Shown: piece by piece, positions 6,768-24,786 of the stretch
Position numbering within the stretch: the stretch's first letter is position 1
Layout of the letters: the number at the start of each line of letters is the position of its first letter
Assembly: GCA_020343535.1 (NCBI GenBank)
Contig: CP070799.1
Span: forward strand, 1,997,547 to 2,034,456
DNA from: Nitrospinaceae bacterium
GTDB lineage: Bacteria; Nitrospinota; Nitrospinia; Nitrospinales; VA-1
Direction of reading: 5' to 3'
DNA: 36,910 bases
Notes under the pieces: generated by a model
The model's input: the letters and a program-made list of their open reading frames with translations, nothing else
Database searches by the model: none
Told to the model about the DNA's origin: nothing
Made by a program: the position numbers and the translations under genes

Positions 6768-6970
6768 GCGTGCTTGGCGAACCAGTGGCCAAAACTCCAG
6801 CCGGTGCTCCCCCGGCGGCGGGCCTGTTGCCTGGCGAGCCCTTGCAGCATCATGCGCTTCAAGGCCTCGCGGCATTCTCCCTCGCTGATCTCGCCCGCCT
6901 GCAACATTTCCTGAAGCCGCAACACCTTCTCCGGCTCAAGAAATGCGCGCAGCTTTTGCTTCGCCGCCAT
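6755..6970 (-). CDS. Small hypothetical protein (71 aa)
   Basis: I do not recognise the family. The protein is basic and helical: MAAKQKLRAF, a Leu-rich helix, QAGEISEGECREALKRM, then RRRG and an aromatic tail (GWSFGHWFAKH). I chose ATG 6970 because GAGG lies 6 nt upstream. An in-frame ATG at 6982 has no ribosome binding site. The appropriate start signal and the terminator-like structure at its end support a real gene. It is unlinked to the lipoprotein gene downstream. Confidence 0.5.
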   Translation of the reverse strand: MAAKQKLRAFLEPEKVLRLQEMLQAGEISEGECREALKRMMLQGLARQQARRRGSTGWSFGHWFAKHAQGL

Positions 6971-7345
6971 CGCTTTCCTCATTATTATTAATAAAGATCG
7001 CCCGCCCCATACGGGCGCACCCCGCCCATGCGGGAGCTGTAAATCTATAAAGCAAACCCTGTGCCAAAGTTAAGGGGCAGATTTTAAAGGATTTTTATGG
7101 CGGCAAGTGTCCAAAAAAGTGCACGGGGAAGGAGGGGACTGTAGATTGAGTGTGAACATGTTGTAAGCAGCGAGGTGGTTCGAGGAAACAAGGGCTTAGA
7201 TGAAGAGGTTGATAAGTATCCGGATCATTATGACTGATGAAGGATAGAAAGTTTTGATTTTGGGGGCGGGCAATTTTGTCCGCCCGCAATTTTTTATGTA
7301 AACAGCCCCTGGGAATTTTTCTCTGATGAGGCCACAAGTATAAAT
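6971..7345. other. A+T-rich intergenic patch with hairpins and a possible gene remnant
   Basis: About 375 bases without a convincing intact gene. At 6994-7031 two adjacent small G+C hairpins of similar sequence (GCCCG/CGGGC and CCCGC/GCGGG) are embedded in A+T-rich DNA. At about 7145-7240 on the plus strand an open frame without a usable start ends in DEEVDKYPDHYD and a TGA. It reads like the C-terminal end of a lost gene and is followed by the terminator at 7266-7295. Base composition is clearly lower in G+C than the surroundings. Confidence 0.4.
7266..7295 (+). terminator. Intrinsic terminator
   Basis: GCGGGC (7266-7271) pairs with GCCCGC (7282-7287), with a 10-nt loop, and is followed by AATTTTTT. 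This is a canonical plus-strand terminator. No intact plus-strand gene precedes it, so it probably belongs to a decayed gene or a small RNA in the preceding 200 bases. Confidence 0.6.
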
Positions 7346-7561
7346 ATGGTTGCACGTGATCGATACCAAATAAACTTAAAATACGAAAATTGCACGGAAA
7401 CCGGTGTTATTGGCATCTCCGAAAATGATTATCCATTTATGAAAAAAGTGGGTAGATCTGTTGATTATGCCAATGGAAACTTTACTGCTCAGATGATGGT
7501 TGAGTTGGAAGTTTTGGCCATTTGCAAGAAATGCGGCCATGGAACAATAGGCTTTAAGTGA
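7346..7561 (+). CDS. Small Zn-ribbon-like hypothetical protein (71 aa)
   Basis: The product begins MVARDRYQINLKYENC, continues TGVIGISENDYPFM and ends with ICKKCGHGTIGFK. The layout resembles small zinc-ribbon proteins that start with a KCPKC knuckle, carry a SEND/EENDYP-like turn and end with a second CxxC. Here the first knuckle keeps only one Cys (C16), so metal binding may be impaired. The start codon has only a weak, distant GAGG. Codon use is A+T-rich, unlike neighbouring genes, which suggests recent acquisition. Function unknown. Confidence 0.5.
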   Translation: MVARDRYQINLKYENCTETGVIGISENDYPFMKKVGRSVDYANGNFTAQMMVELEVLAICKKCGHGTIGFK

Positions 7562-7638
7562 ATTGACTGGGCTTAAAAATCATTCATTGTTCTATTTCTT
7601 CGGCCAGATAGCTATTGGGAATTATTAAATGAGTCCTC

Positions 7639-8237
7639 TCACCGATGATTCCATCGGATTCGGAACCGCGTGACAATAAACCACGCGAATCCGATGAACA
7701 GCATCCAGACAGCATAAGAGATATCTTGAGGCTTGGGGTCAGAAGCCGCGGTAAAAATTCCGACTGTACCGACAATCGCGAGAAGAGACGAAGCTATCAA
7801 CTGCCCCTTGAGCTTCTTGCTGGTCGCCTGAATCGTCTGCACCCCACCGTGGAATTGGGCCGCTGACCCTCCACCAGCGGTGCCGCGCAGCGCGGGCAGC
7901 TCACCGCGCGCAGTGAGACCTCCGCGCCACAATCCGGGCACTGGGTAAGGCGGGAATCCGGTTTCAGGACCGGCCGCGCGGGTCGCAGTGGCTCATCGGC
8001 GATAAGCACCTCCGGCTCCGCCTTGCGCGCCGGCCTCGGGGCCTGCGAACGAGCCCTCTTCAACTTCCCTGGCAGTTCCGGCACCTGGTCAATGCGCGTC
8101 CAGGTCTTTCCCTTGCCGGTGGACACCAGATCTGAACCGACGAGGAACCCCTGCGCCAACTGGTTGTCCATCAGGTCCTGAGGTACGCTCCCCATCACGG
8201 TATCGCCGCGTTTAACCTGGCAGGTCGTCGAGAACAT
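7639..8237 (-). pseudogene. Zinc-ribbon / membrane protein gene split by a one-base frameshift
   Basis: The gene starts at ATG 8237 with GAGGAG 7 nt upstream. The first frame encodes an N-terminal domain (MFSTTCQVKRGDTVMG...), a basic/proline linker and a double-CxxC zinc ribbon (CPDCGAEV, then SCPRCAAPL). It then runs into unlike sequence and stops near 7797. A second minus-strand frame continues with QTIQATSKKLKGQ, two hydrophobic segments (IASSLLAIVG and YAVWMLFIGFAWFIV) and a stop at 7639. The switch point is the run of four C on the plus strand (7842-7845); one added base would join the frames through STVGVQTIQ. The intact form would be a roughly 199-aa zinc-ribbon membrane protein. It is either a true pseudogene or a sequencing error in a homopolymer. 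Confidence 0.7.
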
Positions 8238-8398: not shown

Positions 8399-8560
8399 TC
8401 AGTGGGTCCCGGCGGGCGTGGGTGTTGGCTTGGGCGGCGGGCTGTCGCCGGGGCTTTGCCAGAAGAAGAACAGCCAGAACAGGATGGCGAGGATCAGGAG
8501 CACGATTTTTCTTGCCGCTGGCACGTGCGCGAAGCTGAAGAATTTTTTGAGTGGCGGCAT
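8399..8560 (-). CDS. Small single-span membrane protein (53 aa)
   Basis: This short gene encodes MPPLKKFFSF, a basic stretch (AARK), a strongly hydrophobic helix with Trp and Phe (about residues 19-34) and a Pro/Thr-rich tail (SPPPKPTPTP). GAGGG lies 6 nt upstream of ATG 8560. It begins 15 nt after the stop of the FGE-like gene, so the two are probably co-transcribed and translationally coupled. Positive residues before the helix suggest an N-in orientation with the Pro-rich tail in the periplasm. A role as membrane partner for its neighbour is inference only. Confidence 0.65.
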   Translation of the reverse strand: MPPLKKFFSFAHVPAARKIVLLILAILFWLFFFWQSPGDSPPPKPTPTPAGTH

Positions 8561-8575: not shown

Positions 8576-9580
8576 CTAGGGGGTCTTGGCGCAGCGAAAG
8601 CCAAAACTGTTGTTGCGCACTTCGGGGGTGAAAAAGCTGCGGTTGAACGTCGGCGCGCTCAGGCCGCAGCCGTAGGACAGGCAGTCGAACCACGAGCCGC
8701 CTTTCAATACGCGTTTGTCCTCGCCGTATTCCGGCCTGGGGCGGGTGTTGCCGGGGTGCGGCAGGTAATAGGAATCCACCCATTCCCAGACGTTGCCGGA
8801 CATGTCATTCAGCCCGTAGGGGCTCTTGCCTTCGGGGTAGTTGCCGATGGGCTGAGTGCCGGTGGAGCCGATGTACGGGTTGTTGGATTTCTTGAGCGAC
8901 CATTCGTGCCCCCACGGGTAGGTGAGCCCTTCCTCGCCGCGCGCGGCTTTTTCCCATTCCGGCTCGGTGGGCAGGCGTTTGCCGTTCCAGGCGCAGTAGT
9001 CGTGGGCGTCGAACCAGTTGACGTACACCACGGGGTGGCGCTCCTTGCCTTCCGGGATGTTTCCTTCGGGCCAGTGGTACGGTGCTTCATGGCCGGTGGC
9101 GGCGACGAATTTCTGGTAGTCGGCGTTGGTGACTTCATTGATGTCTATATAGAACGCCTCAGTGCGGGCGATGTGCTCGGGGGATTCGTCGTCCCAGCGC
9201 TCGTTGGAGCCCATGATGAATTCTCCCGCAGGCACCAGCGCCATGCCCTCGGGGGCTGTGTCTTTGGCGGCACCGGGCTGCGGGCCGGTCTTCTTGGCGT
9301 TGCTTGCGAGCACGGCTTTTGGCCGAACCTTCACGGAAGGGGGAAGGTGGCTGGCGGGCAGCAGCGGGCGCGCGGGCACGCCCTGGTGGCAGCTTTTGCA
9401 GCGCTCTTCGGCGAAGCGGTCGCTTCTCGCCTGAATGATGTTTTCGGCCTTGTGGCAGGTGCTCTCGCATTTTAAACTGGATTCGCCCAGTTCGGGAAAC
9501 GCGCTGGCCGCCTTGGGCGAAAGCAGGGTGGCGAGAAGCCCTGTCAGGATGAGTGTCTTTAGGGTCCGGGTTGCTGGCAT
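8576..9580 (-). CDS. Formylglycine-generating-enzyme (SUMF1-like) domain protein with N-terminal haem motifs
   Basis: This is a 334-aa exported protein. The signal peptide (residues 1-27, cleavage near AASA) is followed by a short cytochrome-like part with CESTCH (C38, C42, H43; a CX3CH motif) and CKSCH (C61, C64, H65; canonical c-type haem motif). From about residue 108 comes an FGE-sulfatase fold: MALVPAGEFIMGS, LPTEPEWEKAARG, GNVWEW, VLKGGSWFDC and FGFRCA. C300 and C305 have the C-x4-C spacing of the FGE active-site pair, although C300 is one residue further from GGS than in characterised FGE. Many proteins with this fold are not enzymes. The start is ATG 9580, where the signal peptide begins; a much longer upstream reading is non-coding in appearance. 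Confidence 0.88.
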   Translation of the reverse strand: MPATRTLKTLILTGLLATLLSPKAASAFPELGESSLKCESTCHKAENIIQARSDRFAEERCKSCHQGVPARPLLPASHLPPSVKVRPKAVLASNAKKTGPQPGAAKDTAPEGMALVPAGEFIMGSNERWDDESPEHIARTEAFYIDINEVTNADYQKFVAATGHEAPYHWPEGNIPEGKERHPVVYVNWFDAHDYCAWNGKRLPTEPEWEKAARGEEGLTYPWGHEWSLKKSNNPYIGSTGTQPIGNYPEGKSPYGLNDMSGNVWEWVDSYYLPHPGNTRPRPEYGEDKRVLKGGSWFDCLSYGCGLSAPTFNRSFFTPEVRNNSFGFRCAKTP

Positions 9581-9626
9581 GGTGTGTGATCGCGCGGCAT
9601 GGGCGGAAGAGTTAGGGTCGAAGTTC

Positions 9627-9655
9627 AGAGTAAAGGATGGCCGAATGGGAGTCAA
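9627..9655 (-). promoter_or_regulatory. Candidate promoter for the FGE-like gene
   Basis: On the minus strand, TTGACT (plus 9650-9655, 5 of 6), a 17-nt spacer and TACTCT (plus 9627-9632, weak) would start a transcript about 40 nt before ATG 9580. By eye only. Confidence 0.3.
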
Positions 9656-9703
9656 AGCAAAATTCCAGCCACCGGTGCTTGTCCGCCGGGGGGCGTTTTT
9701 CCG

Positions 9704-10534
9704 GTGAATCCCTGGCGGCTCATTGAGGACGGGCCGGGCGAGGGCGACGCCAATATGGCGCGGGACCACGCGCTGCTGCTCGCCGCCGACGCGGGGCGGG
9801 TGGCGCCCACGCTCAGGCTTTATGGCTGGCGGCGGCCGACGGTGAGCCTCGGACATTTTCAGGACCCGGCGCGGGCGGTCGATGCCGGGCGCTGCCAGGC
9901 GATGGCGGTTCCGGTGGTGCGCCGCCCCACCGGTGGCCGGGCGCTGTTGCATCATCATGAGATCACCTACAGCCTGGCGGTGCCGTTGCCGCATCCGTTG
10001 TTCACCGACGGGTTGCGGGAGACGTATGCCGCCGTCGCCCGCGCGTTGCTCGCCGCCGTCCGCGCGCTCGGGGTGGAGGAGGCCCAAGCCGCAGCAGAAA
10101 GCCGTGGCGGCTTGCGCTCGCCGGCGTGTTTTGCCACACTCAATCATGGCGAGATCAGCGTCGGCGGCCGCAAGCTTCTGGCGAGCGCCCAGCGCCGGCT
10201 GAAGCGGGCGTTTCTGCAGCACGGCTCGTTGCCGCTTGAAAAGCCGGGCGAGCTTTCCTATTCGCTGTTCCTCTATGAAAACGAAGCCGCCCGCAGCGCA
10301 GCGGGGGAGCGCCTGCAAAACAGCACCACCGCGCTTGCCGAGGTGGCTGGGTGTCCGGTACCGCCCGCCCGGGTGAGCGCCGCTTTTCGCCAGGGCTTTG
10401 CCGATGCTCTGGGCGTCGTCTTCGAGCCCGCTGGCTGGACGGCGTGGGAACGCGAGACGGCCCGGCGCCTGCAGGAGGAGGGTGAAGACCCTGCGCCACT
10501 GCCAAGACGCGGAGCCGGGCCCCGGTGCCCGTGA
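9704..10534 (+). CDS. lipM: Octanoyltransferase / lipoate-protein ligase family (LipM-like)
   Basis: This BPL/LPL-fold acyltransferase probably moves octanoyl from acyl-carrier protein to lipoyl domains, the first step of lipoate synthesis. It is 276 aa, as in LipM. It opens with NPWRLIEDGP and NMARDHALL, then has the RRPTGGRALLHH motif. A cysteine at residue 142 (SPACF) sits where LipM has its catalytic Cys. The invariant Lys region GRKLLASAQRR and LQHGSL follow. I chose GTG 9704 because family N-termini align there; the ribosome binding site is poor (a G run about 10 nt upstream). LplA-type ligase remains the alternative; the cysteine favours LipM. It is divergent from the FGE-like gene. 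Confidence 0.8.
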   Translation: MNPWRLIEDGPGEGDANMARDHALLLAADAGRVAPTLRLYGWRRPTVSLGHFQDPARAVDAGRCQAMAVPVVRRPTGGRALLHHHEITYSLAVPLPHPLFTDGLRETYAAVARALLAAVRALGVEEAQAAAESRGGLRSPACFATLNHGEISVGGRKLLASAQRRLKRAFLQHGSLPLEKPGELSYSLFLYENEAARSAAGERLQNSTTALAEVAGCPVPPARVSAAFRQGFADALGVVFEPAGWTAWERETARRLQEEGEDPAPLPRRGAGPRCP

Positions 10535-10539
10535 AGGTT

Positions 10540-10568
10540 TTGCTTGTTTCCGAGGATTCCTTTATAAT
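10540..10568 (+). promoter_or_regulatory. Promoter for the FG-GAP lipoprotein gene
   Basis: TTGCTT (10540-10545), a 17-nt spacer and a perfect TATAAT (10563-10568). The predicted transcript starts near 10575, giving a leader of about 57 nt that contains a TTGCGC/GCGCAA inverted repeat. Confidence 0.5.
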
Positions 10569-10631
10569 TTCGAATTTTGTCACCTTGCGCGGCGAACGCG
10601 GCGCAACCTTCCCATCCGCGAGGGGCATGCG

Positions 10632-11927
10632 ATGAAGGCCTGGAAACCGAGCCGTACAGGCGGTGCACCGTTTCATCCCGGAGCAGGGCGATGGGCGCTG
10701 GTGTTGTGCCTGCTGGCCGGGCTTGGGTTTGCCTGCAGCAAGGACCCCTCGGTGGCCGACAACCCGCACCGCCAACACTACCTCGACGCCACCCGCAAGC
10801 TCTTTTCCAAGCCGCTGCCGCAGCCGATTCTGCAGGCGGGCTTTACCGCGGCCGACCGCAACCGCCATCCCGACCTGCTGCTGCTCGCCGACCAGGGTGC
10901 GAAGGGCAAGGCGGTATTTGTCTATTTCAACCGGCCCACGGAAGGGAAGCTGGAGCAGACGGGCGAGCCGCAGACGGTGGCGGAGGCCGGTGAGGAAGTG
11001 CTGCACCTTGCCACCGCCGATTTCGACCGCGACCATGCGGACGATGTGATCCTGATCCTGAAAACCGGCCAGGGGATGCGGGTCAAAATCCTGTTCAATA
11101 ACGGCAAGGCCTATTACTACGAAAAGATCAAATACGCCCTGCCGCCGGTGCGCGCCGGCGTGACCCGCGTCGATCTCCTGGATGTCGACGACGACCGCGA
11201 CGTCGACCTGTTGTTCAGCGGGCCGCTGCTGCGCCACGGCGACGGACGCACGGACGAACACCAGGCGCAGTTGTTCATCAATAACGGCCTTGGGGAGTTT
11301 CGCGATTTCTCCCGCCTGCTGTTGCCGCCCGCGCCGCCGGGCATCTCCGGGGTTTCCTATGCCGACTATGATGGCGACCGCATCCCCGACCTGTTCGTCA
11401 TGTACGGCAACGGCCAGAACCGCATGTTTCTCAATAACGGCCTGGGCAAGTTCACCGATGCGACGAGGCGCTCGCTTCCCGCGATCGCGGACGAGACCGT
11501 GAGCGCCGACTGGGCGGACTTCGACCAGGATGAGGACAACGATCTGCTGGTCGTCAACCGGCGCCTCCTAAATTCGGCCACAAGCTCAGGCGAGACGTCC
11601 TATTTCCTTGAAAACAACGGCCGCGGCGAATTCAGCAAGAGATCCTACCCGGGCCTGCCCGCGCTTCCGGCCCTCAATGTCTACCTGCTCGACGCCAACG
11701 GCGACACGATGGCCGATGCGTTGATCCTGAACGGGGAGGGCGTGCTGTACCTGCAGGGAAAAGGCAAGTGGAGGTTCTCCAACGAGACGCTGCGGCGGCT
11801 GCCCCGGTTTCATCGTTTTCAGGAACTGGTGTTCGCCGATGTCGACCGGGATCATTTCCTGGACCTGTTCGGCATCGAAAACGGACCCCGGCGGCGGGGG
11901 TTGTTGTGGCTCAACCGTATCGATTGA
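10632..11927 (+). CDS. FG-GAP/VCBS repeat lipoprotein
   Basis: This is a 431-aa predicted lipoprotein (hydrophobic signal then GFAC) forming an integrin-like beta-propeller. At least six calcium-binding loops of DxDxDxxxD type are visible, in order: DFDRDHADD, DVDDDRDVD, DYDGDRIPD, DFDQDEDND, DANGDTMAD and DVDRDHFLD. The adjoining strands carry FINNGLGEF, FLNNGLGKF and FLENNGRGEF, which supports a six- or seven-bladed propeller. ATG 10632 has GAGGGG 8 nt upstream. Its own promoter precedes it and an intrinsic terminator follows directly, so it is probably a single-gene unit. Binding partner unknown. Confidence 0.88.
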   Translation: MKAWKPSRTGGAPFHPGAGRWALVLCLLAGLGFACSKDPSVADNPHRQHYLDATRKLFSKPLPQPILQAGFTAADRNRHPDLLLLADQGAKGKAVFVYFNRPTEGKLEQTGEPQTVAEAGEEVLHLATADFDRDHADDVILILKTGQGMRVKILFNNGKAYYYEKIKYALPPVRAGVTRVDLLDVDDDRDVDLLFSGPLLRHGDGRTDEHQAQLFINNGLGEFRDFSRLLLPPAPPGISGVSYADYDGDRIPDLFVMYGNGQNRMFLNNGLGKFTDATRRSLPAIADETVSADWADFDQDEDNDLLVVNRRLLNSATSSGETSYFLENNGRGEFSKRSYPGLPALPALNVYLLDANGDTMADALILNGEGVLYLQGKGKWRFSNETLRRLPRFHRFQELVFADVDRDHFLDLFGIENGPRRRGLLWLNRID

Positions 11928-14285: not shown

Positions 14286-14306
14286 TACTTTAGCCAGAGT
14301 GGGGAG

Positions 14307-15833
14307 CTAGAAAGGCAGGGAATTGAGGGCGATCTGCATGAACCCCGAGGGAAACAGGCCAATGGCCACGATGGCCAGCGAGCTCACGCCGACCAGTGCC
14401 CCCATGCCGGGGCTGACCGCGGGAGCGGGTTCTTCCTCGCTCTCGTGGAAATACATCATCACGATCACGCGCAGGTAAAAATAAACCGAAATAACGCTGG
14501 CGATCACGGCAAAAATGGTGATGAGCACGTAACCCGCCTTGATCGCAGCGACGAAGAGAAATAGCTTGCCGAAGAACCCCGCGGTGGGGGGAAAGCCCGC
14601 GAGGGACAGCATGAACAGGGTCATGGCCGCCGCCAGCAGCGGGTTGCGTTTGGCGAGGCCCTTGAAGCGGTTGATCGATGCGCCGTCCTGGCCTTCGCCC
14701 TCGAGGATGAACAGCACGGCAAAGGCGCCGACGTTCATGAACAGGTAAGCGCCCAGGTAGAAGAGAATGCTTGCGACCCCGTCCTCGCTGTTGGCGACGA
14801 TGCCGATGAGCAGGTAACCGGCGTGCGCGACGCCGGAGTAGGCCAGCATCCGCTTGACGTTGTCCTGAAAGATCGCCGCGGTGTTGCCGACCAGCATGGT
14901 CAACGCCGAAGCGCCGAACAGGATGGGCATCCAGACCTTCTGAATATCGGGCAGGGCGGTAAAAAACACCCGCGCGATGAGGGCGAACGCCGCCGCCTTG
15001 GTGGCCACCGACATGAACCCGGTGATGGGGGTCGGCGCGCCCTGGTAGACATCCGGGGTCCAGGAGTGGAAGGGCACCAGCGACACCTTGAACGCCATGC
15101 CGGAAAACATGAGACCCATGCCGATGAACACCAGGGTGTTTTTCATATATGGGTTTTCCTGCATGAGCGTGCCGATCGTGCGGATTTCCGTTGTTCCCGT
15201 TCCCGCGTAGATGAGGGCCATGCCGTAGACCAGGATGGCCGAGGCGAACGCCCCAGTGAGCAGGTATTTGACCGTCGATTCCTGAGACGCCAGGCATTCC
15301 CAGCTCAGTTGAGCGCCATCGGCGGGGCCTTCCCGTCCGGTGCCGTGCTTGGCGGAAAAGCCGCACAGGATGTACAGGGCGATGGAAAATATCTCCAGGG
15401 AAATGAACGCCGTGATCAGGGTCCCCGATTTGGCGAGGAACATCATGCCGGATACCGCGAGAAGCACCAGGGCGAAATACTCGGCCTTGTTCCTGTTGTC
15501 CGCCAGGGGGTAGCGCACGGAGCCGAAAAAAGCGAACAGCGACATAATCAGGAAGATTATATTGAAAGTTTGCGCGAACCGGTCGTGAATCAGCGCGTTG
15601 CTGAACATGCCCGGGCTGGCTCCGTTGCCCGCCGTGGGAGCGTCGCTCCAGAGGGCGAGAGAGAAGACGAGGGCGGCGGCGGTGCCGGCGAGGGCCACCA
15701 TGGAAAGGAAGCGGTTTGTATCGCACTCCTTCTTGAGGCCGAGAAGGAGCACCGCGAGGGCGGTGAAAATCACCGTAAGCTCCGGCCCGAGGGCCATCCA
15801 GTTCATATCGTCGAAATTGATATTGATTTCCAT
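14307..15833 (-). CDS. nuoN: NADH-quinone oxidoreductase subunit N, away from the main nuo cluster
   Basis: This antiporter-like proton-pumping subunit of the complex I membrane arm has 508 aa and about 14 membrane segments. NuoN hallmarks are clear: FHSWTPDVYQGAPTP, ATKAAAFALIARVF and RMLAYSGVAHAGYLLIG. ATG 15833 has GAGG about 6 nt upstream. An in-frame GTG 15 codons earlier (15878) gives an unlikely N-terminus. It is alone on the minus strand, about 15 kb from nuoA-G, which run the other way. It could complete the same complex or belong to a second set; the sequence here cannot decide. Confidence 0.95.
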   Translation of the reverse strand: MEININFDDMNWMALGPELTVIFTALAVLLLGLKKECDTNRFLSMVALAGTAAALVFSLALWSDAPTAGNGASPGMFSNALIHDRFAQTFNIIFLIMSLFAFFGSVRYPLADNRNKAEYFALVLLAVSGMMFLAKSGTLITAFISLEIFSIALYILCGFSAKHGTGREGPADGAQLSWECLASQESTVKYLLTGAFASAILVYGMALIYAGTGTTEIRTIGTLMQENPYMKNTLVFIGMGLMFSGMAFKVSLVPFHSWTPDVYQGAPTPITGFMSVATKAAAFALIARVFFTALPDIQKVWMPILFGASALTMLVGNTAAIFQDNVKRMLAYSGVAHAGYLLIGIVANSEDGVASILFYLGAYLFMNVGAFAVLFILEGEGQDGASINRFKGLAKRNPLLAAAMTLFMLSLAGFPPTAGFFGKLFLFVAAIKAGYVLITIFAVIASVISVYFYLRVIVMMYFHESEEEPAPAVSPGMGALVGVSSLAIVAIGLFPSGFMQIALNSLPF

Positions 15834-16115
15834 AGCGTCCTCGAATGGCGGCGCTTGCACCCGCCCGGGCACGGCCACCGGGTGGTGACGCGAGCCTGAC
15901 CCTCCTAAGCGTCGTAGGGTTTTTAAAGCATTTCCAGATATTTTTCAAGGGAATGTTTCCCGCTTCAAGGCCCCGCGCCGCCGCCGGGCCCTTAAAGGGG
16001 CTTTCCTCCGGCGCCCCCGGCCGAGGGCAGGGTTTCCCGTTCCGAAAATTAGGATATAATGAAATCCGATGCCGTTCCCTTCGGAAACCGGAAGACACAG
16101 GGTAGGATTGCATTG
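15834..16115. promoter_or_regulatory. Divergent promoter region between nuoN and the giant CHAT gene
   Basis: A 282-base spacer between divergent genes. On the plus strand a perfect TATAAT (16055-16060) implies a transcript starting near 16067, so the giant gene should start at ATG 16116 rather than the upstream ATG 16059, which is part of the -10 itself. No good -35 partner is seen. On the minus strand a TTGAAA and an A+T-rich stretch near 15925-15950 could serve nuoN. Confidence 0.4.
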
Positions 16116-19100
16116 ATGCTGAAGCGCACTGTCATCATTGGCCTTGTGGCCGCTTTTTACCTGGCCGGGAATGCTCCCGTCCGGGCCGAAATCGCCTACA
16201 ACGAGCCCCGGCAGTTGACCACCCACCCCGGGGAGGATTTCGCCGCGGTGATATCGCCGGACGGAACCTTCATTATTTATGTGTCGGACCAGTCGGGCAA
16301 CCTCGATCTGTGGATGAAGTTCATCGGCCCCGGGGTCCAGCCTCCGGCGCGCCGCCTCACGCAGCATATCGCCGAGGACAATTCGCCCGCCATCAGCCCG
16401 GACGGCAAGCGGGTGGCGTTCATCTCCCACCGCTTCGACCCGCGCGGCGACATCTTACTCCTCGATCTCGGCGGAGCGGAGGAAGGGGAGGCCGCGCCCG
16501 TCCTCCTCACGGACGACCGGTTGACCGAGGCCGACCCAGTGTGGTCGCGCGATGGAGGCTCCATCTATTTTGTCTCCGAAGATCCGGATACAAGGAAAGA
16601 AGGTCTGTTCCGCATCGATGTCCTTTCCGGCGCGCGTTCCCCCCTGATCGTGGAAGACGCGGTCAACCCCGCACCGTCGCCCGGCGGCGGTCACCTTGCC
16701 TACGCCAGGGGCGGTGCACAGGGCGGCCTGGGCGTCCTGGACCTTGAAACCGGTACGCGGACGGGGCTCACCACCGGCCCCGCCGTCGATATGTTCCCTA
16801 GCTGGCGGGAGGACGGGCGGCTCATCTACTTCGTGCGCTACCAGGACGACACCAACAAGGACGGGCGGCTGGACCTCGACGACAACCCGAATCTGTGGAG
16901 CGTCGAATGGGACGAGGGCCGGCCGGGCCTGCTGCGCCAGCTCACCGACAGTTCCACCTACGACCTCCTCCCCGCCGCCGGGTCCGGCGGGTTGCTCTTC
17001 ACTTCCAACCGAAAAAACAGCATCGATATCTGGCAGGTTCCCGGTCCGGGGTTGCTTCCGCGCATGGAGGGGTACGGCTGGGCGCTGCAGGCTGTGGAGG
17101 ACCTGTGCCCGAACCCCGCGTCCTACCGTTGTTTTTTGACCTACAACAACCTGCTGGGAGAATTCAAGGGGCGAAAGAGCCTGGCGCGCATCCGTTATCA
17201 GCTGGCGCGCGGTTATCAGGAGATGGGGCACCGGGACACCGCGCTGGCCGTCTACCGCGAACTCATCGAGGAGGACCCGGAGCCTGTGGAATACAAGGGG
17301 CTGGCCGAAATCGAACTGTTGCTCCTCGACATCGAGCGCTCCCGGGACGAAGGCCCGACGGCGCATCGCAGGGCCCTTGAGGCCGGGCTGGACGGGCTTG
17401 GCGAATTGTTCGAGCGCTACCGGGGCCGGGGACGGGTGGAATCGCGGGCGCTCTTTGAAACCGGCGCCCTTCATCTCGAGCTCGACGAGCCGGACCGGGC
17501 GCTCGCGTTTTTCAGGAAGGTAACGGAGGAGTACCCCCGGCAGCGGGTCATTTCCGCCGAGGCCGCCTTCGACCAGAGCCGCATCTACAGTTTGGTGGGG
17601 GATCAGCAGAAAGTGGTAGCTGCCTACGTCCAGGTGATCGCCGATTATTACGATGTGGACGCGTGGACCGACCGTGCCATCCAGGAAATTCTCAACCTTT
17701 ATGAACAGGCGCCGACACTGGAGAAGAAGGTTTCCAGTCTGCAGGCCCTCGCCGCCGAGCAATCCGGGCTGCCCCGCCTCGCCGCCGCCGTGCAGAACCG
17801 CATCGGTGAATTGTATCACCTGAATCGGGAAAACCTTCTCGCCAAGGAAGCGTACCGCGAAACCCTGGTTCGCTACCCGGAGGTTGCGGCGCGTGTTTTC
17901 GACGCCCAGGTGGCGCTTGCAAATATCTACGCCGAGGAGGAAAACTTCGAGGAAAGCCTGAAGCTCTATGAGCAACTCGGCGAGTTTAGCGCGCAGGTGG
18001 AGGACCTGCGCGAAGCGGCCCGGCAAGGGTGGATCGAGAAATCCCTGGAGAAGGGAAAGTGGGAGCTGCGGGTCGGTGAAATCAAACTGGCGCTTAAAAC
18101 ATTTCTCAAGGTGATGGAGGAAAGCCCCGCCACGGTGGAGGCGCACCGCGGTTACCTGTCCGCCCAGGCGGCTCTTGGCCAGGCGGCGCAAGCGGTGGCG
18201 TTTTACAAGGAGAGGGTGCGGGAGAATGAAACCTCGGCGGTGGAGGCCTACGCCCTCGGCCTCGCCTATACCTACCTCGACCCGCCCGGCCTCGACGCAG
18301 CCCGGCGAGAGATTTCCCGCGCCATCCTGCAGGACTCCCGGCAGGTTTTCTTTCATCAGACCCTGGGCTGGGTTTTCGAGCAGAAGGACCGCAAAGAGCC
18401 CGGCGGGGATTTTCTTGAGCGGGCCGTCGCGGAATACGAGGTCGCCCTCGCCCTGAACGATGAGACCGCCGATCCCGACAACGAAGCCGACCTGCTGCTC
18501 AATATGGGCAACGGCCACTACCTGCTGAAAAATTATTATGCGGCTTTCCTCTACTACGGCCGGCGCGCCAAGGCCGGGGTGGGATTTTTCAATCCGGCCC
18601 GCGAGGCCATCTTCCGCCAGCGGTTCGGCGAGAGCGCGTTCAAGGTCGGCGAGCCGGAGGCCGCCCTGGCGGAGTATGAGAAGGCGCTGGACCTGGTTTC
18701 CCGGCAAAACGATCTTGCCCGCATGGCCGAGCTCAACGATCGCATCGCGCTGGTGCACCAGGAGCTCGGCCAGCACGCCCGCGCGGTGGATCATTTTTCG
18801 CGCACTCTCGACCTCAACCGGCGGGCCGGCAACATGGGCTCCTTGTCGCGCTCGCTCCGAAACATCGCCAACAACTTGTTCCTGCTGAGCGAGAAAGGCG
18901 ATGACGACAGCCACGCCCTCAACCGGGCGCTCGGGAACTATTTCGCCGCCATCGACAACCTCGAAAAATACGGAGTGGTCGAGAAAAAGAAGAAAAAGAG
19001 ATCGGGGCTCATCGGCATCGACGTTGAGGCCGGCGCGGGCCCGGATGCCTCCGGCGCCGCGACGGGGTTCGACAAGGCGGGCGAGGAAAAACTGATCTTC

Positions 19101-22100
19101 CATTATATTGGCCGCATCTACGCCTCCTTCGGCGAGTACGGCCGCGCGGTGGACTACTTTAAAAAGAAGCTGGAGCGGATTCCAGACAACCTCGACCCGA
19201 AGAAGCACGTGCCGGTGCTACTCGAAAAGGCCCTGCTGCTGAACCAGATCGGATATTACATGCACCTCGGGGGGCAGGGGGAGGAGAGCGTGGAATGGTT
19301 CAGGGCCTCGTACGATATCAGCCGCCAACTGGCCAACGGTCGCGGCATCGCGGTCAACGCCGCCAACATCGGCCGCGTCGTGTTCGAGCAGGCGCGGACC
19401 CTGCCCGCGCCGCGGTTTTTGCCGAGGCTCGCCGATGCCGCGCGCCTGCTCGAGGAAGCGGCGGCGGACGTCCGGGCGATGGAAAATTTTGCCAGCCCGG
19501 AATACCTGGTGCTCATCCAGAATTACCTTGGGGTCTTTCATCACGCCCTGGCCTATCACGGCTCCGGCGTGGCGAGGGCGGAGGATGAGGCCCCGGCGTC
19601 CGCAAAGGCGGCGCTACGGGCGGCGCTCGACGGTCTTGGACGGCAAAGCCAAAGCGCGCTCAAATCCGCGGCGGCGTTAGAGGAAGGCCTGAAGCTGCTG
19701 GATTCGCGCAGCGTCGCCGGCCAACCGCACCTGCGGCAGGCCCTCGGGCAGAACATCGCCCTGTCGCGCTCACTTTTGGGGGGAGGCCCGAAAGGCGCGC
19801 CAGACCCCGCGCCGGTGGCGCCCGCCTGGCTCTGGCGCACGCTTTATCAGGCGGCGCTCACCGCCAGCGAGGGAGAGCGCCTGGATCGCCTGCGCGAAGC
19901 CGAGCGGGAGCTTGACCGCCTGCCCGCGGTGTTTTTGGTGCGCGATGCGCCGGGCGTGAAATTAATGGAAGACCTTTACCGGGAGCTCACCGCCTCATTA
20001 TTTGCCGCAGGAAGTATCGAGGAGGCCCTGCGTTTTTCCGAGAAGGGGCGGCAGCAGGCACTCCTCGCCCGGCAGCCCCGCCTCAAATTCGAGGATGCCG
20101 ACCGCCAGGCATACCAAGACGAGATCGATTCCCTTGGCGGGCGACTGCGGACGCTGGCCGAGGCGGCGGAAGAGGCGGAGGCCTTCGAAGCGGCGCTTGC
20201 CGAATACCAGGAGTTTCTCGCGATGGTCCGGGAGGACGACCCCCGGCTCGCGGTGCTTCTTACGCCGGACGCGCCGGATCCGAAGGACATAGCGCCCCTT
20301 CTCGCGCCGGGGGCTGGGTTGCTCAAGGTGCAACGGGTGGACGATGCCCTCCTGCTCTGGCTCATCGGCGGCGGTGGGGTGAAAGGCGAGCGGGTGGGGT
20401 TGCCCGCGGGGCTTTCGGGCCGCTTATCCGCCGGGCCCTTGACGGCGCCCACCGGGGCCGAAGCCGCTTTGCTGGCCTCGATCCTCGCGCCAGTTCAGGC
20501 CGAGCTCGAGCGGGCGAAGACGCTTTACCTGATCGCTGACGGGGCGCTCGAATTCCTGCCTTGGGCCGCGGCGCCCCTCGGCCCGGCGACGCTGGCCGAG
20601 AAAATGCCGTTGGTGTTCCTTGAGTCGGTCACGCACCTGAAATGGGCCACCGCCGCCCGCAACCTGTACAGCTCCCGTTACCTGGGGGTGGAATCGCCGC
20701 CGCTGCCCGCGCTGTCGGGGAAATTCGCCTCGGCGGAAACCCTGGCGGGCGACGCTGCCACCGGCGAGGCGTTTCGCGAACGGTGGGCGCATTTCGGCGT
20801 GGTCCACATCGACACGCCCGCCAGGCTCAGCCCCGACGATGCGGCTATCAACCTGACGGGCATGGAAAACCGCTTTGAACGCCTGGGCTTAAGCGACCTG
20901 CTCACACAGCCGGTCGAGGCGCATCTGTTCGCACTCGGCGACGTGGACGTTCGCTTCGATCCCGAAACCCGCCTGAGCCCCACCGCACCCCTCATCCGCG
21001 CGCTCACCTTCAAGGGCTATCCCGGCGTGTTGTTGCGCGCCGGCCCGAAGGATGAGGCCCTGCACGCCGAACTGTTGAATCTGTTCTTCGAGCGCTTGCC
21101 CGAGGGCCGCCCCGCCCGGGCCCTGCAGCTCGCGCAGGTCGAACTCGCCCGGCGGCATCCGGGCAATCTCGCCTGGGCAGGGTACCGGTTCTACGGGTTT
21201 CCCGGCATGGAGGAGGAAGAGAAAAACCTGTTTGCGCGCACGCATTTCGACGCCAACGTCGAGGCCGGGGCGAAGGCCTTTCTGGCGAAAGACTGGCTCG
21301 CGGCCATCGACCACCTGGAAAAGGCGCTGGCGCTCGTTCGCTTTCTTCCAGATTCGGCGCAGGCGATCAAGCTTCGGCAGACCCTCGCCCAGGCCGCCTA
21401 CAATCGGGAGGATTACCGCAAAGCCATCCATTACCAGGAGGCACTCCTGCCCGCCGTCGAACAGGCCGACGACCCGGAGGTGTTGGCCGAGGCCCTTTAC
21501 TTCCTCGGCATCCTCGAATCGCGGGCGGAAAACTTTCCTAAATCGGTGGAGCACCTGAAGCGGGCGCTGTCCATTTTCGAGCAATATGAAATTCTCGACC
21601 GGCTAGCCGAAAGCTACAGCACGCTGGGCATCGTCGAGGAAAACGCCCTCGACTACGACCAGGCCCTGGAAGCCTTCCGCCGTTCGCTCGAGATCAATCA
21701 GGAGATCGGCGAAGAGCTCAACCGCGGCCGCGAGCTTCGGCGCATCGGACGGATTTATTATCTCCGGCTCAGCCGCTACGCCGACGCTCGGAAATACTTC
21801 ACCGACGCCTACGACCTGTTCGCCGGGCTCGATGAAAAGGAGCAGATGGCCGAAAGCCTGCTGGAACTCGGCCTGGTCAGCGAAAAACAGGGCGACTTCG
21901 AGCGGGCGCTGGATTATTACCAGCGGGCCGAGGAGCTCGCGGCCGGTGAGGAGATGCGGGCGGTGCTGTCGAAAGCGCTTCTCTACCAGGCCAATTCGCA
22001 CTGGTATCAGGGCGCCTATCAGCAGGCTTTCCGCTTTCAGAAAAGCGCCCTCGACATCGCCGAAGCCCTCGGCGACAAGCGTCAGGAAGTGTTCATTTAT

Positions 22101-24083
22101 AATACGCTGGGACTCATCCATTGGACACTGAACGATTCCAAGCGGGCGCTGGAGAACCTGGAAAAGAGCCTTGAACTCGCCCGCGAAATCGCCTCGCCGC
22201 TGGATATCGCGACGGCCTACAACAACATCGGCCTGGTGCACCGGAAGAACGAGGCGTACGAAACGTCCATCGATTTCTTCAGCAAGGCCCTGGAAAAAGA
22301 CATCGAACTCAAATCCAAGTGGGGGCAGGGCTACACCCACCGCAATCTCGGCATGAGTCTGCTGAGGCTTGGCAGGCTCGACGAGGCGGAGACGCACATC
22401 GAACAGGCCGTCGTCCTAAGCGACGCTATCGGCAACCACATCAACCTTGTCAAATCGCTGCTGGAGTGCGGCCACCTGGCTCTGGAGAGAAAGAGCTTCG
22501 AGAAAGCCATCGAGGTTTTCAGGGAGACGGCGAAGCGGGAGGAAACGGTCAACCTGCCCGAGGTGCGGTGGCGCGCCCTTCGGGGCGAGGGCGCCGCCCT
22601 GGTCGCCGGCGGCCGCCGCAGGGAGGCGGCGGCGGTCTACAAGGAAGCGGTGGCGGTGGTGGATCGGCTGCGCGCCGCCATCAAGATCGAGGAGTTTCAG
22701 AACGGTTTCCTCACCGACAAGCAGGACGTTTATAAGGAACTGGTGCTTCTCCTGCTCGATATGGGGCGGGTGGAGGAGGCGTTCAACTACGCCGAGAAGG
22801 CCAAGTCGCGCAGTTTCATCGATCTGCTCGGCAACCAGAGATTCAGCCTCAAGAACGACGTGAGCCAGAGGCTCTACGATCAGCTGATGGCGAGCAAGCA
22901 ATCGATCCGCCTGATCGAGGACGCGCTGGCCGAGGCGCGAAGCAAGGAAGATGAGGCCGGGGCCACCCGGCTCGCGGGCGAGCTCGAGGCGGCGCGCAAC
23001 GGTTACCAGGACCTGCTCATCGCGGCCAAGGAGGAGAGCCCGCAGATCTCAAGCTTCGTCACCGTCGACGCCATTGAACTCGACGCCCTGCAGGGGCTTC
23101 TGGAAGAGGGGACGGCGCTGGTCGAGTACCTGGTGACCAGGCAGGAGCTCGTCGCCTGGGTGGTGACGAAAGGGGGCATCGAGGTGGTTCGCACTGCCGT
23201 CGCCGAGGCCGACCTGAACGCCAGGATCGCCGATTACAGGAAGCGTATTCAACAGCTCGCGCCAGTAGAGGAGGTGTCGGAGCGGTTGCATGGCTGGCTG
23301 ATCGCGCCGCTGGCCGGGCGCATCGCGGAGGCGCGCGTGCTCGGCATTGTGCCGCACGGGCACCTGCATTACCTGTCCTTCGCCTCGCTCAAGGACAAGG
23401 AGGCCTACCTCATCGAACGGCACCCGCTGTTCTATTCACCCAGCGCCTCGGTGCTCAGGTACACCTTTGGGCGAAAGCGCGAGATCAGCGGCCCGGTGAG
23501 GGTGCTGGCGCTCGGCAACCCGGACCTCGGCGATTTCAATTACGACCTGCCGCTGGCCGAAATGGAGGCCAACGCCATCCGCTGGGACTTTCCGACCGTT
23601 GACGTGTTGACGCGCGAGAAGGCGACGGAAACCTGGCTCAAGGAGCACATCGGCGATTATCAGATCATCCACATCGCCTCGCACGGCGAATTCGATCCGG
23701 TCAACCCGCTGTTCTCCTCGCTCAAGTTGACGAAGGACGAAGCCGCCGATGGCAACTTCGAGGTCAACGAAGTGTTTTCGCTCAAGATCGACGCCGACAT
23801 CGTCACCCTGAGCGCCTGCCAGACCGGACTTGGCGACATCAAGGGCGGCGACGAGCTGGTGGGCCTGAACCGCGCGTTCATCTACGCCGGCACGCACTCC
23901 ATCCTTTCCTCCCTGTGGCGGGTGAGCGACATCTCGACGGCGGTGCTCATCAAGCATTTCTACCGCAACTTCGCGCATGGCGACAAGGCCGAAAGCCTGC
24001 GCAAGGCGCAGCTCCTCGTCAAGAAGTTCTACCCCCATCCCTCCTACTGGGCCGGGTTCAGCCTGAGCGGCGACCATCGCTGA
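16116..24083 (+). CDS. Giant exported PD40-TPR-CHAT protein with two CHAT domains
   Basis: A 2655-aa protein, predicted to be exported by a signal peptide (MLKRTVIIGLVAAFYLAG..., cleavage near VRAE). Residues about 30-310 form a TolB/PD40 beta-propeller with repeated SPDGxxIxYVS-type blades. Residues about 350-1200 are TPR helices. About 1395-1705 is a CHAT-like domain without catalytic cysteine. About 1715-2200 is a second TPR array of kinesin-light-chain style. About 2325-2655 is a complete CHAT domain with H2523 (IASHGE) and C2568 (LSACQTG), the caspase-like dyad. CHAT domains are clan CD peptidases, so a regulated protease is likely; the substrate is unknown. The start is ATG 16116, since an upstream ATG at 16059 overlaps a TATAAT. 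The gene stands alone between divergent nuoN and a convergent gene. Confidence 0.93.
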   Translation: MLKRTVIIGLVAAFYLAGNAPVRAEIAYNEPRQLTTHPGEDFAAVISPDGTFIIYVSDQSGNLDLWMKFIGPGVQPPARRLTQHIAEDNSPAISPDGKRVAFISHRFDPRGDILLLDLGGAEEGEAAPVLLTDDRLTEADPVWSRDGGSIYFVSEDPDTRKEGLFRIDVLSGARSPLIVEDAVNPAPSPGGGHLAYARGGAQGGLGVLDLETGTRTGLTTGPAVDMFPSWREDGRLIYFVRYQDDTNKDGRLDLDDNPNLWSVEWDEGRPGLLRQLTDSSTYDLLPAAGSGGLLFTSNRKNSIDIWQVPGPGLLPRMEGYGWALQAVEDLCPNPASYRCFLTYNNLLGEFKGRKSLARIRYQLARGYQEMGHRDTALAVYRELIEEDPEPVEYKGLAEIELLLLDIERSRDEGPTAHRRALEAGLDGLGELFERYRGRGRVESRALFETGALHLELDEPDRALAFFRKVTEEYPRQRVISAEAAFDQSRIYSLVGDQQKVVAAYVQVIADYYDVDAWTDRAIQEILNLYEQAPTLEKKVSSLQALAAEQSGLPRLAAAVQNRIGELYHLNRENLLAKEAYRETLVRYPEVAARVFDAQVALANIYAEEENFEESLKLYEQLGEFSAQVEDLREAARQGWIEKSLEKGKWELRVGEIKLALKTFLKVMEESPATVEAHRGYLSAQAALGQAAQAVAFYKERVRENETSAVEAYALGLAYTYLDPPGLDAARREISRAILQDSRQVFFHQTLGWVFEQKDRKEPGGDFLERAVAEYEVALALNDETADPDNEADLLLNMGNGHYLLKNYYAAFLYYGRRAKAGVGFFNPAREAIFRQRFGESAFKVGEPEAALAEYEKALDLVSRQNDLARMAELNDRIALVHQELGQHARAVDHFSRTLDLNRRAGNMGSLSRSLRNIANNLFLLSEKGDDDSHALNRALGNYFAAIDNLEKYGVVEKKKKKRSGLIGIDVEAGAGPDASGAATGFDKAGEEKLIFHYIGRIYASFGEYGRAVDYFKKKLERIPDNLDPKKHVPVLLEKALLLNQIGYYMHLGGQGEESVEWFRASYDISRQLANGRGIAVNAANIGRVVFEQARTLPAPRFLPRLADAARLLEEAAADVRAMENFASPEYLVLIQNYLGVFHHALAYHGSGVARAEDEAPASAKAALRAALDGLGRQSQSALKSAAALEEGLKLLDSRSVAGQPHLRQALGQNIALSRSLLGGGPKGAPDPAPVAPAWLWRTLYQAALTASEGERLDRLREAERELDRLPAVFLVRDAPGVKLMEDLYRELTASLFAAGSIEEALRFSEKGRQQALLARQPRLKFEDADRQAYQDEIDSLGGRLRTLAEAAEEAEAFEAALAEYQEFLAMVREDDPRLAVLLTPDAPDPKDIAPLLAPGAGLLKVQRVDDALLLWLIGGGGVKGERVGLPAGLSGRLSAGPLTAPTGAEAALLASILAPVQAELERAKTLYLIADGALEFLPWAAAPLGPATLAEKMPLVFLESVTHLKWATAARNLYSSRYLGVESPPLPALSGKFASAETLAGDAATGEAFRERWAHFGVVHIDTPARLSPDDAAINLTGMENRFERLGLSDLLTQPVEAHLFALGDVDVRFDPETRLSPTAPLIRALTFKGYPGVLLRAGPKDEALHAELLNLFFERLPEGRPARALQLAQVELARRHPGNLAWAGYRFYGFPGMEEEEKNLFARTHFDANVEAGAKAFLAKDWLAAIDHLEKALALVRFLPDSAQAIKLRQTLAQAAYNREDYRKAIHYQEALLPAVEQADDPEVLAEALYFLGILESRAENFPKSVEHLKRALSIFEQYEILDRLAESYSTLGIVEENALDYDQALEAFRRSLEINQEIGEELNRGRELRRIGRIYYLRLSRYADARKYFTDAYDLFAGLDEKEQMAESLLELGLVSEKQGDFERALDYYQRAEELAAGEEMRAVLSKALLYQANSHWYQGAYQQAFRFQKSALDIAEALGDKRQEVFIYNTLGLIHWTLNDSKRALENLEKSLELAREIASPLDIATAYNNIGLVHRKNEAYETSIDFFSKALEKDIELKSKWGQGYTHRNLGMSLLRLGRLDEAETHIEQAVVLSDAIGNHINLVKSLLECGHLALERKSFEKAIEVFRETAKREETVNLPEVRWRALRGEGAALVAGGRRREAAAVYKEAVAVVDRLRAAIKIEEFQNGFLTDKQDVYKELVLLLLDMGRVEEAFNYAEKAKSRSFIDLLGNQRFSLKNDVSQRLYDQLMASKQSIRLIEDALAEARSKEDEAGATRLAGELEAARNGYQDLLIAAKEESPQISSFVTVDAIELDALQGLLEEGTALVEYLVTRQELVAWVVTKGGIEVVRTAVAEADLNARIADYRKRIQQLAPVEEVSERLHGWLIAPLAGRIAEARVLGIVPHGHLHYLSFASLKDKEAYLIERHPLFYSPSASVLRYTFGRKREISGPVRVLALGNPDLGDFNYDLPLAEMEANAIRWDFPTVDVLTREKATETWLKEHIGDYQIIHIASHGEFDPVNPLFSSLKLTKDEAADGNFEVNEVFSLKIDADIVTLSACQTGLGDIKGGDELVGLNRAFIYAGTHSILSSLWRVSDISTAVLIKHFYRNFAHGDKAESLRKAQLLVKKFYPHPSYWAGFSLSGDHR

Positions 24084-24117: not shown

Positions 24118-24786
24118 TCAGGACGGAACCTCATCGGGGCCTGGAAAAACCCGGCTGGCTTCCAGAAGGACCCAACGTTCGGACGTGTCGCCGATCACCA
24201 GGTCGAGATGATCGCCGATGCGCACCCGTTCGAGGATATTGTCCGAGAGGCGCAGAGAAAGGTCGTCTTTTTCCCGGGGGCAATGCAGGTGGATGCGGTC
24301 GCTTGAGATTTTCGCGACGCGAAACAGCGTGGCTCGGGTGAGGACGATTTCCGGCGGGGAAGCCAGCACCCGCTGGGCCTCGGCGTCGAGAAGGTGGCTG
24401 AGTTCCAGGCAGCGGCTCTGCTCGCCCGCCAGTTCGCGCATCAGGCAGTCCACCGCCAACTCTCCCAGCCCGGCCGGGTCGCCCCTTTTGTCAAGCCACT
24501 GTAGGAAGGAATACACCTCGAACAGGATGGCGTTGATCTCGTTTTTATCGGTGACGGAATTGAACGGCAGGAAAGCGACGATGAAATGGCTGAGATGCAG
24601 GGGCCGCAGGTTTTTCGGCTCGGCGGTGAGGCGCGGGTTTTCTTCCGGTCCCTCCGTCGCGAGGCCCGTTTCGACGAGGCTTTGGTGAAACAGGGCGATG
24701 CTCTTTCCCAACTCGCCCGCCGGCAGGTCCGCCGGAGCGATGCGGTGGAGGCGCGCGTATTCGGCCATGTGGTCGTACAGCGTCAC
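24118..24786 (-). CDS. Hypothetical protein coupled to the PhnW-like aminotransferase (222 aa)
   Basis: No family recognised. The first half is helical (MAEYARLHRIAPADL, SIALFHQSLVETGL, FLPFNSVTDKNEINAILFEVYSFLQWLDKRG). The second half looks like beta-strands (EIVLTRATLFRVAKIS, DRIHLHCP, RIGDHLDLVIGDTSERWVLLEASRVFPG). There is no signal peptide or membrane helix. The GTG start (24786) overlaps the stop of the aminotransferase gene as GTGA, so translation is probably coupled and the products may work together. It ends 34 nt from the end of the giant CHAT gene, which converges on it. Confidence 0.72.
   Translation of the reverse strand: MTLYDHMAEYARLHRIAPADLPAGELGKSIALFHQSLVETGLATEGPEENPRLTAEPKNLRPLHLSHFIVAFLPFNSVTDKNEINAILFEVYSFLQWLDKRGDPAGLGELAVDCLMRELAGEQSRCLELSHLLDAEAQRVLASPPEIVLTRATLFRVAKISSDRIHLHCPREKDDLSLRLSDNILERVRIGDHLDLVIGDTSERWVLLEASRVFPGPDEVPS

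Follow-up and report, generated by a model that had tools for sequence, protein, structure and literature searches.

The window analysed here, a stretch of 36,910 nucleotides (positions 1,997,547-2,034,456 within a single 2.53-Mb contig) from a bacterium of the phylum Nitrospinota, contains a gene whose product joins two N-terminal haem-attachment motifs to a domain with the formylglycine-generating enzyme (FGE) fold, and this domain carries a cysteine pair that occurs together with the motifs. The combination of a dihaem mini-domain with an FGE fold and a coupled cysteine pair is a conserved and apparently undescribed architecture; in the open-licence literature that we consulted, which is less than a full survey, we recognised no description of a dihaem FGE-fold protein. 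Our data lead us to propose, with a confidence that falls somewhat short of even, that the protein is a periplasmic, haem-wired copper/thiol oxidoreductase and not a general activator of sulfatases. Nature has here joined the FGE fold, with two cysteines in the corresponding segment, to a pair of haem motifs, and the protein thereby offers a direct test of whether cytochromes can feed FGE chemistry. The gene is nearly universal (60/64 genomes) in an order within the phylum reported to hold major marine nitrite oxidisers (PMC10839748, PMC3578206). The cysteine pair, a small membrane-protein gene located downstream and the occurrence of the family in other phyla are new with respect to the initial annotation of this DNA.

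Organisation of the gene and its product

The features of the gene and of its immediate surroundings are collected in Table 1. Judging by its hydrophobic start and the AxA-like end of that segment, the protein would be exported to the periplasm, and the aligned Nitrospinota orthologues, inspected by eye, likewise start with a hydrophobic N-terminus. The two motifs named in the initial annotation, C38-C42-H43 and C61-C64-H65, lie exactly at those residues of the translated minus-strand open reading frame (ORF). The FGE fold that it had placed C-terminal of them is borne out by the PF03781 profile, which matches residues 111-332 with an E-value of 1.9e-55 and a score of 188.7 bits (cut-off 23.3).

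Table 1. Features of the dihaem FGE-fold gene and of the adjoining genes, in positions of the window.
Feature	Position	Strand	Basis
Gene for a 53-aa single-pass membrane peptide, directly downstream	8399..8560	-	ORF; similar peptides in relatives
Gene encoding the FGE-fold protein (334 aa) with two haem motifs	8576..9580	-	Uninterrupted ORF from ATG
FGE-sulfatase (PF03781) fold domain, residues 111-332	8585..9250	-	Profile match; structure model
D299-C300-L-S-Y303-G-C305, C-x4-C pair in the part corresponding to the copper-site segment of FGE	8666..8686	-	29/29 orthologues
Linker of low conservation, residues 66-110	9251..9385	-	Orthologue alignment; low model confidence
CXXCH, residues 61-65 (CKSCH), canonical haem-attachment motif	9386..9400	-	29/29 orthologues
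CX3CH, residues 38-43 (CESTCH), atypical haem-attachment motif	9452..9469	-	29/29 orthologues
Signal-peptide-like N-terminus, residues 1-27, ending AASA-F	9500..9580	-	Judged by eye
Divergent lipoate-ligase-like gene (start uncertain)	9599..10534	+	21/21 Nitrospinota loci that were compared, counting the window
FG-GAP repeat protein gene (start uncertain)	10398..11927	+	20/21 compared Nitrospinota loci

The haem-attachment motifs

Conservation of both motifs among homologues, which the initial annotation had proposed as a check, was found throughout: CX3CH-x17-CXXCH and the loop GGSWFDCLSYGCGLSAPTFNR are kept in 29/29 aligned Nitrospinota orthologues, with identical spacing of the motifs. This alignment comprises the orthologues with retrieved loci, minus one with a frame break (L030), and in it the N-terminal part around the motifs is otherwise freely variable. 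A chance origin of the motifs is ruled out by this conservation, which is the stronger test, and by shuffling, as in 50,000 shuffles of the protein's own residues CXXCH arose in 256, CX3CH in 243 and both in 3.

Across phyla, 23/23 aligned members keep all six haem-motif residues unchanged, and the homologues from other phyla mostly carry the canonical CXXCH as first motif. Among the 83 dihaem ORFs that also possess the cysteine pair described below, the first motif is CXXCH in 41 and CX3CH in 42, the latter with the x17 spacing in 41 cases and x15 in one; CX3CH is also found in L187, which belongs to the same class but to another family. Since the canonical motif occupies the first site elsewhere, we read the Nitrospinota CX3CH as a modified haem site; this is the best sequence evidence on the matter, and it supports the prediction of two haems per protein. 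One report (PMC6295460) treats the CX3CH of ImcH and CymA homologues as an atypical haem motif.

The family members compared share no distal His or Met near the two motifs, so the distal haem ligands would be either supplied from elsewhere or missing. The best profile for the N-terminal fragment of the window's protein was cytochrome c3, below its cut-off (PF14537, 20.2 vs 25), and the fragment also scored weakly on zinc-finger and zinc-ribbon profiles. When nine N-terminal fragments were compared with the Pfam cytochrome models, that of L110 passed PF09699 (23 vs 20.6) and that of L099 barely reached the same cut-off (20.7). The motif itself drives these weak matches to cytochrome c3/c7 and doubled-CXXCH profiles. 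The protein resembles the cytochrome c3/c7-like mini-domains (PF14537, PF14522, PF09699) in its tandem, closely spaced motifs, but it has only two of them, the first being CX3CH in Nitrospinota, and no conserved distal ligand.

Cytochrome-assembly proteins are encoded in the window's genome (three PF01578 matches over the cut-off), and covalent attachment of haem to the protein appears likely, as does a redox function. The suggestion in the initial annotation that haem next to this fold serves redox chemistry in the periplasm is reasonable in view of the conserved motifs, the PF01578 proteins and the cytochrome genes adjoining relatives, while the haem itself and the flow of electrons are what we infer from them.

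The FGE fold and related families

The structure model used was built for the mature protein from a 106-row alignment, an earlier one based on the 29 orthologues (pLDDT 47.5) having been set aside. Its mean pLDDT was 85.2; most of the FGE domain exceeded 90, the block holding the cysteine pair had 69, and the initial 80 residues had 42-72. Foldseek/VIA-align comparisons placed FGE, CalU17, EgtB and ToxD chains near the top (E-values to 5.5e-24), and the best 20 VIA rows had Z scores of 27.3-29.2 and rmsd values of 1.9-2.9 over 216-222 residues. With its profile score of 188.7 bits against 23.3 and Z scores of 27-29, the protein is a member of the PF03781 FGE-sulfatase superfamily. However, likeness of fold alone does not tell function, since PorK and the phage and treponemal variable proteins have the same fold, and FGE folds can serve as non-catalytic scaffolds (PorK/GldK).

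Identity with several families of this superfamily was rejected on the basis of NCBIfam scores far below the cut-offs, namely EgtB (122.7 vs 360), SenA (117.2 vs 420), OvoA (54.5 vs 400), PvdO (56.8 vs 500) and PorK/GldK (84.4 vs 350). The sulfoxide and selenoxide synthases EgtB, OvoA and SenA likewise have an FGE-fold domain and carry out oxidative sulfur or selenium chemistry. With FGE (SUMF1) itself the protein has in common PF03781, the fold (Z about 28) and two cysteines spaced C-x4-C within the segment of the GGS loop; it differs in its two N-terminal haem motifs, in its DCx2YxCG[LI]S loop, in the shift of the pair by one residue in the ungapped alignment and in having no tie to sulfatases. 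SUMF2, the FGE paralogue (1y4j), was the top PDB sequence match and aligns without gaps from GGS to the final FRC; it has no cysteine at either position of the pair, and no haem motif was aligned.

The cysteine pair

C300 and C305 are located within a GGS[WFY]xDCx2YxCG[LI]S-like loop, which in the orthologue alignment is better conserved than any other part of the protein; its DCx2YxCG[LI]S part is invariant in 29/29 Nitrospinota orthologues. Across phyla, both cysteines are present in 22/23 aligned members.

Co-occurrence with the haem motifs was counted in 217 distinct FGE-like ORFs containing both ends of the FGE model; duplicates and ORFs lacking an end were excluded, and the frame-shifted copy L030 and the contig-edge copy L104 stand outside this count. 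The pair is present in 86 ORFs, of which 83 have two haem motifs, while three related ORFs (L094, L218 and L219) have the pair and no haem motif. The pair is missing from the other 131 ORFs: 129 of these are free of haem motifs, two motifs are present in L105, and a neighbour gene in L099 has one CXXCH, located in a cytochrome c domain. The window's genome has 26 PF03781 matches (two of them partly masked), a large paralogue expansion for so small a genome (2.53 Mb). Only one match has two haem motifs, and the same dihaem protein is the only one with the pair after GGS; L175, from this genome, carries a C-x4-C upstream of GGS instead.

In a quick tree of 82 rows, 46 of which fall in no named group, the pair carriers, with or without haem motifs, group together in a single clade (support 88), and the three that lack the motifs are nested within it. 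The 83 co-occurrence rows, about half of which are the Nitrospinota form, are therefore not independent, and the pattern looks like one old fusion kept together rather than many events. The cysteine pair, occurring as it does together with the haem motifs, gives the strongest hint as to the purpose of the electrons.

FGE is described as an unusual one-copper enzyme (PMC12123546) that binds Cu(I) through two cysteines in a linear bis-thiolate and needs two electrons per turnover, its natural, physiological reductant being still unidentified according to these accounts (PMC12123546; PMC4505483). When aligned to human FGE by HMM, the family has its pair one residue further along in the ungapped part and shows two extra residues ahead of the final GFRC; opening a one-residue gap on each side would bring both cysteines into line with the FGE pair. 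Owing to this register shift and to the low model confidence of the loop, C300/C305 is only a putative counterpart of the FGE copper cysteines, and the presence of copper at this site is plausible.

Distribution of the family and of sulfatases

A profile search (E<=1e-90) identified the gene in 62 of 77 Nitrospinota genomes, that is, in the 60 order members already mentioned and in 2/13 genomes outside the order. The order members without a match are G015, G035, G057 and G064, with completeness values of 87, 79, 57 and 59%, respectively. At E<=1e-20, a threshold that also admits paralogues, 41/41 genomes were matched, with 10 to 31 matches per relative; the orthologue separates from these paralogues at 61-86% identity, G015 having a partial copy with a stop (58%) and G035 none.

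Beyond Nitrospinota, a genome scan yielded at least 80 loci, and among the matches listed both features occur in metagenome-assembled genomes titled Gammaproteobacteria, Chromatiales, Deltaproteobacteria, Nitrospirota and Candidatus Manganitrophus; some members titled Deltaproteobacteria fall under Myxococcota according to the tree labels. Of 245 sampled genomes of Nitrospirota, the phylum of Manganitrophus, 20 were matched at E<=1e-75, 18 of them having the family including its N-terminal part, and G105 and G130 matching in the FGE part only.

The window's genome encodes two sulfatase-family proteins with a CXPXR motif (CCPSR and CVPAR). A PF00884 match at E<=1e-15 was obtained in 37/77 Nitrospinota genomes; gene and sulfatase are found together in 30 genomes, the gene alone in 32, a sulfatase alone in 7 and neither in 8. 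Given that 32/62 carriers lack a sulfatase match, activation of sulfatases is not the shared job of these proteins, unless the threshold or incomplete genomes hide sulfatases, although it may be the role in the window's own organism. As PF00884 also includes enzymes that need no formylglycine, the 30 genomes with both are an upper figure for a link to sulfatases.

Gene neighbourhood

A peptide similar to that encoded directly downstream is present within 450 bases in 35/41 distinct Nitrospinota loci and was not found in the other 6. These peptides have about 36-86 residues, one membrane span and the pattern R[KR]...FWxFFYW; a similar pattern gave no match in loci L091-L190, and among the loci searched it was seen only in Nitrospinota. 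On the other side, the lipoate-ligase-like and FG-GAP genes (9599-11927, plus strand), divergent from the dihaem gene, stay together across the order.

Outside Nitrospinota the family gene is frequently accompanied by a second FGE gene, often of the GGxWGxxGHY type; this type stands beside the pair-bearing FGE in L091, L092, L097, L099, L101, L104, L237, L240, L241, L254 and L255; one gene lies between the two in L092, and in L104 the contig ends within the first gene. These paired genes make a two-FGE system possible. Monohaem cytochrome c genes are located beside relatives in L092, L237, L239, L240 and L241, and L240 and L241 combine multihaem cytochromes, NHL-repeat proteins and a monohaem cytochrome with the two FGE genes (Pfam assignments made on L240). 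Some Nitrospirota members stand downstream of ubiA- and ubiD-like genes, and transporters or regulators lie beside other members. The contexts overall agree on no single pathway; the cytochrome-rich ones favour electron transfer but name no substrate.

Several loci show arrangements of their own. The ubiA- and ubiD-like genes cluster with the dihaem FGE gene in L096, L098, L100, L238, L246 and L248, often together with a chorismate-lyase-like gene and another FGE gene. Directly after the dihaem FGE gene of L099 lies a cytochrome c-FGE fusion (6923-8173), which likewise joins an FGE domain to a c-type haem domain but differs in that its cytochrome c domain is a whole, CBB3-like one with a single CXXCH, and in that its FGE domain belongs to another clade and lacks the pair. 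An apparent domain swap is seen in L105 (5809-7571), where the FGE domain that carries the haem N-terminus belongs to the neighbouring clade and lacks the pair; the gene that follows encodes an FGE close to the dihaem clade, also without the pair.

Proposed function and alternatives

According to our tentative proposal, the protein would be exported, and a two-haem c-type mini-domain would be wired to the FGE-fold domain in the periplasm. C300/C305 would most likely bind copper or, failing that, cycle between dithiol and disulfide, and single electrons would travel through the two haems between this site and the cytochrome pool of the periplasm. The substrate may be a thiol or another small or peptide molecule, and in Nitrospinota the small membrane peptide may tether the protein at the inner membrane.

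A different role, possible though doubtful in our judgement, is that of an electron-transfer scaffold in which the FGE fold serves only as a binding module, attaching the dihaem mini-domain to a complex of the membrane or outer membrane, and the cysteine pair is a structural disulfide. This role would agree with the fold held in common with PorK/GldK and the variable proteins, with the frequent adjacent second FGE gene, often of the GGxWGxxGHY type, with the membrane peptide gene of Nitrospinota, and with the relatives that adjoin multihaem cytochromes, NHL propellers, a weak outer-membrane-barrel match and a monohaem cytochrome c. However, the loop of the cysteine pair is conserved beyond what a scaffold would apparently need, and the pair falls in the active-site segment of FGE.

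The proposed oxidoreductase could also take the form of an FGE-type Cu(I)-thiolate oxygenase with its own electron supply and a non-sulfatase target, working in nitrite- and manganese-oxidising and other bacteria; the two c-type haems would then feed the two electrons of each turnover. We regard this form as unlikely.

It is improbable that the protein is a true formylglycine generator, oxidising a cysteine of a sulfatase or of another exported protein with the two electrons given by the haems. The FGE-like C-x4-C spacing would suit such an enzyme, as would the two CXPXR sulfatase-family proteins of its own genome, where no other FGE match bears the pair at this place; against it stand the off-by-one register of the pair, the 32/62 carriers without a PF00884 match and the seven genomes with a sulfatase match and no gene. 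An equally slim prospect is that of a haem-bound sensor of small ligands, or of a cytochrome handling NO, O2 or nitrite, whose open haem sites would bind the ligand while the FGE domain relays the signal or reacts. The mini-domain without a conserved distal ligand fits this idea, and so does the near-universal presence of the gene in a Nitrospinales-like order whose known members, as far as these sources describe them, live on nitrite (PMC10839748, PMC3578206), but no nitrogen-metabolism gene was named among the annotated neighbours and the family is also found in 18/245 sampled Nitrospirota genomes. Finally, it is most improbable that the motifs hold zinc or an iron-sulfur centre, CX3CH never being haemylated, as the atypical CX3CH and the weak zinc-finger and zinc-ribbon scores of the window's fragment might suggest, because the first site is CXXCH in 41/83 members, CX3CH has its precedents in ImcH and CymA homologues, the start looks exported and the best profile of the fragment, albeit below the cut-off, is cytochrome c3.

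Other genes of the window

Further along the window, positions 16059-24083 (plus strand) encode a protein of 2674 aa with PD40 propeller repeats, many TPRs and a C-terminal CHAT domain. It is flanked by ORFs of 607 aa (14290-16113, minus strand) and 399 aa (24118-25317, minus strand) with no Pfam match at E 0.01, and the 607-aa ORF has relatives in other Nitrospinota loci.
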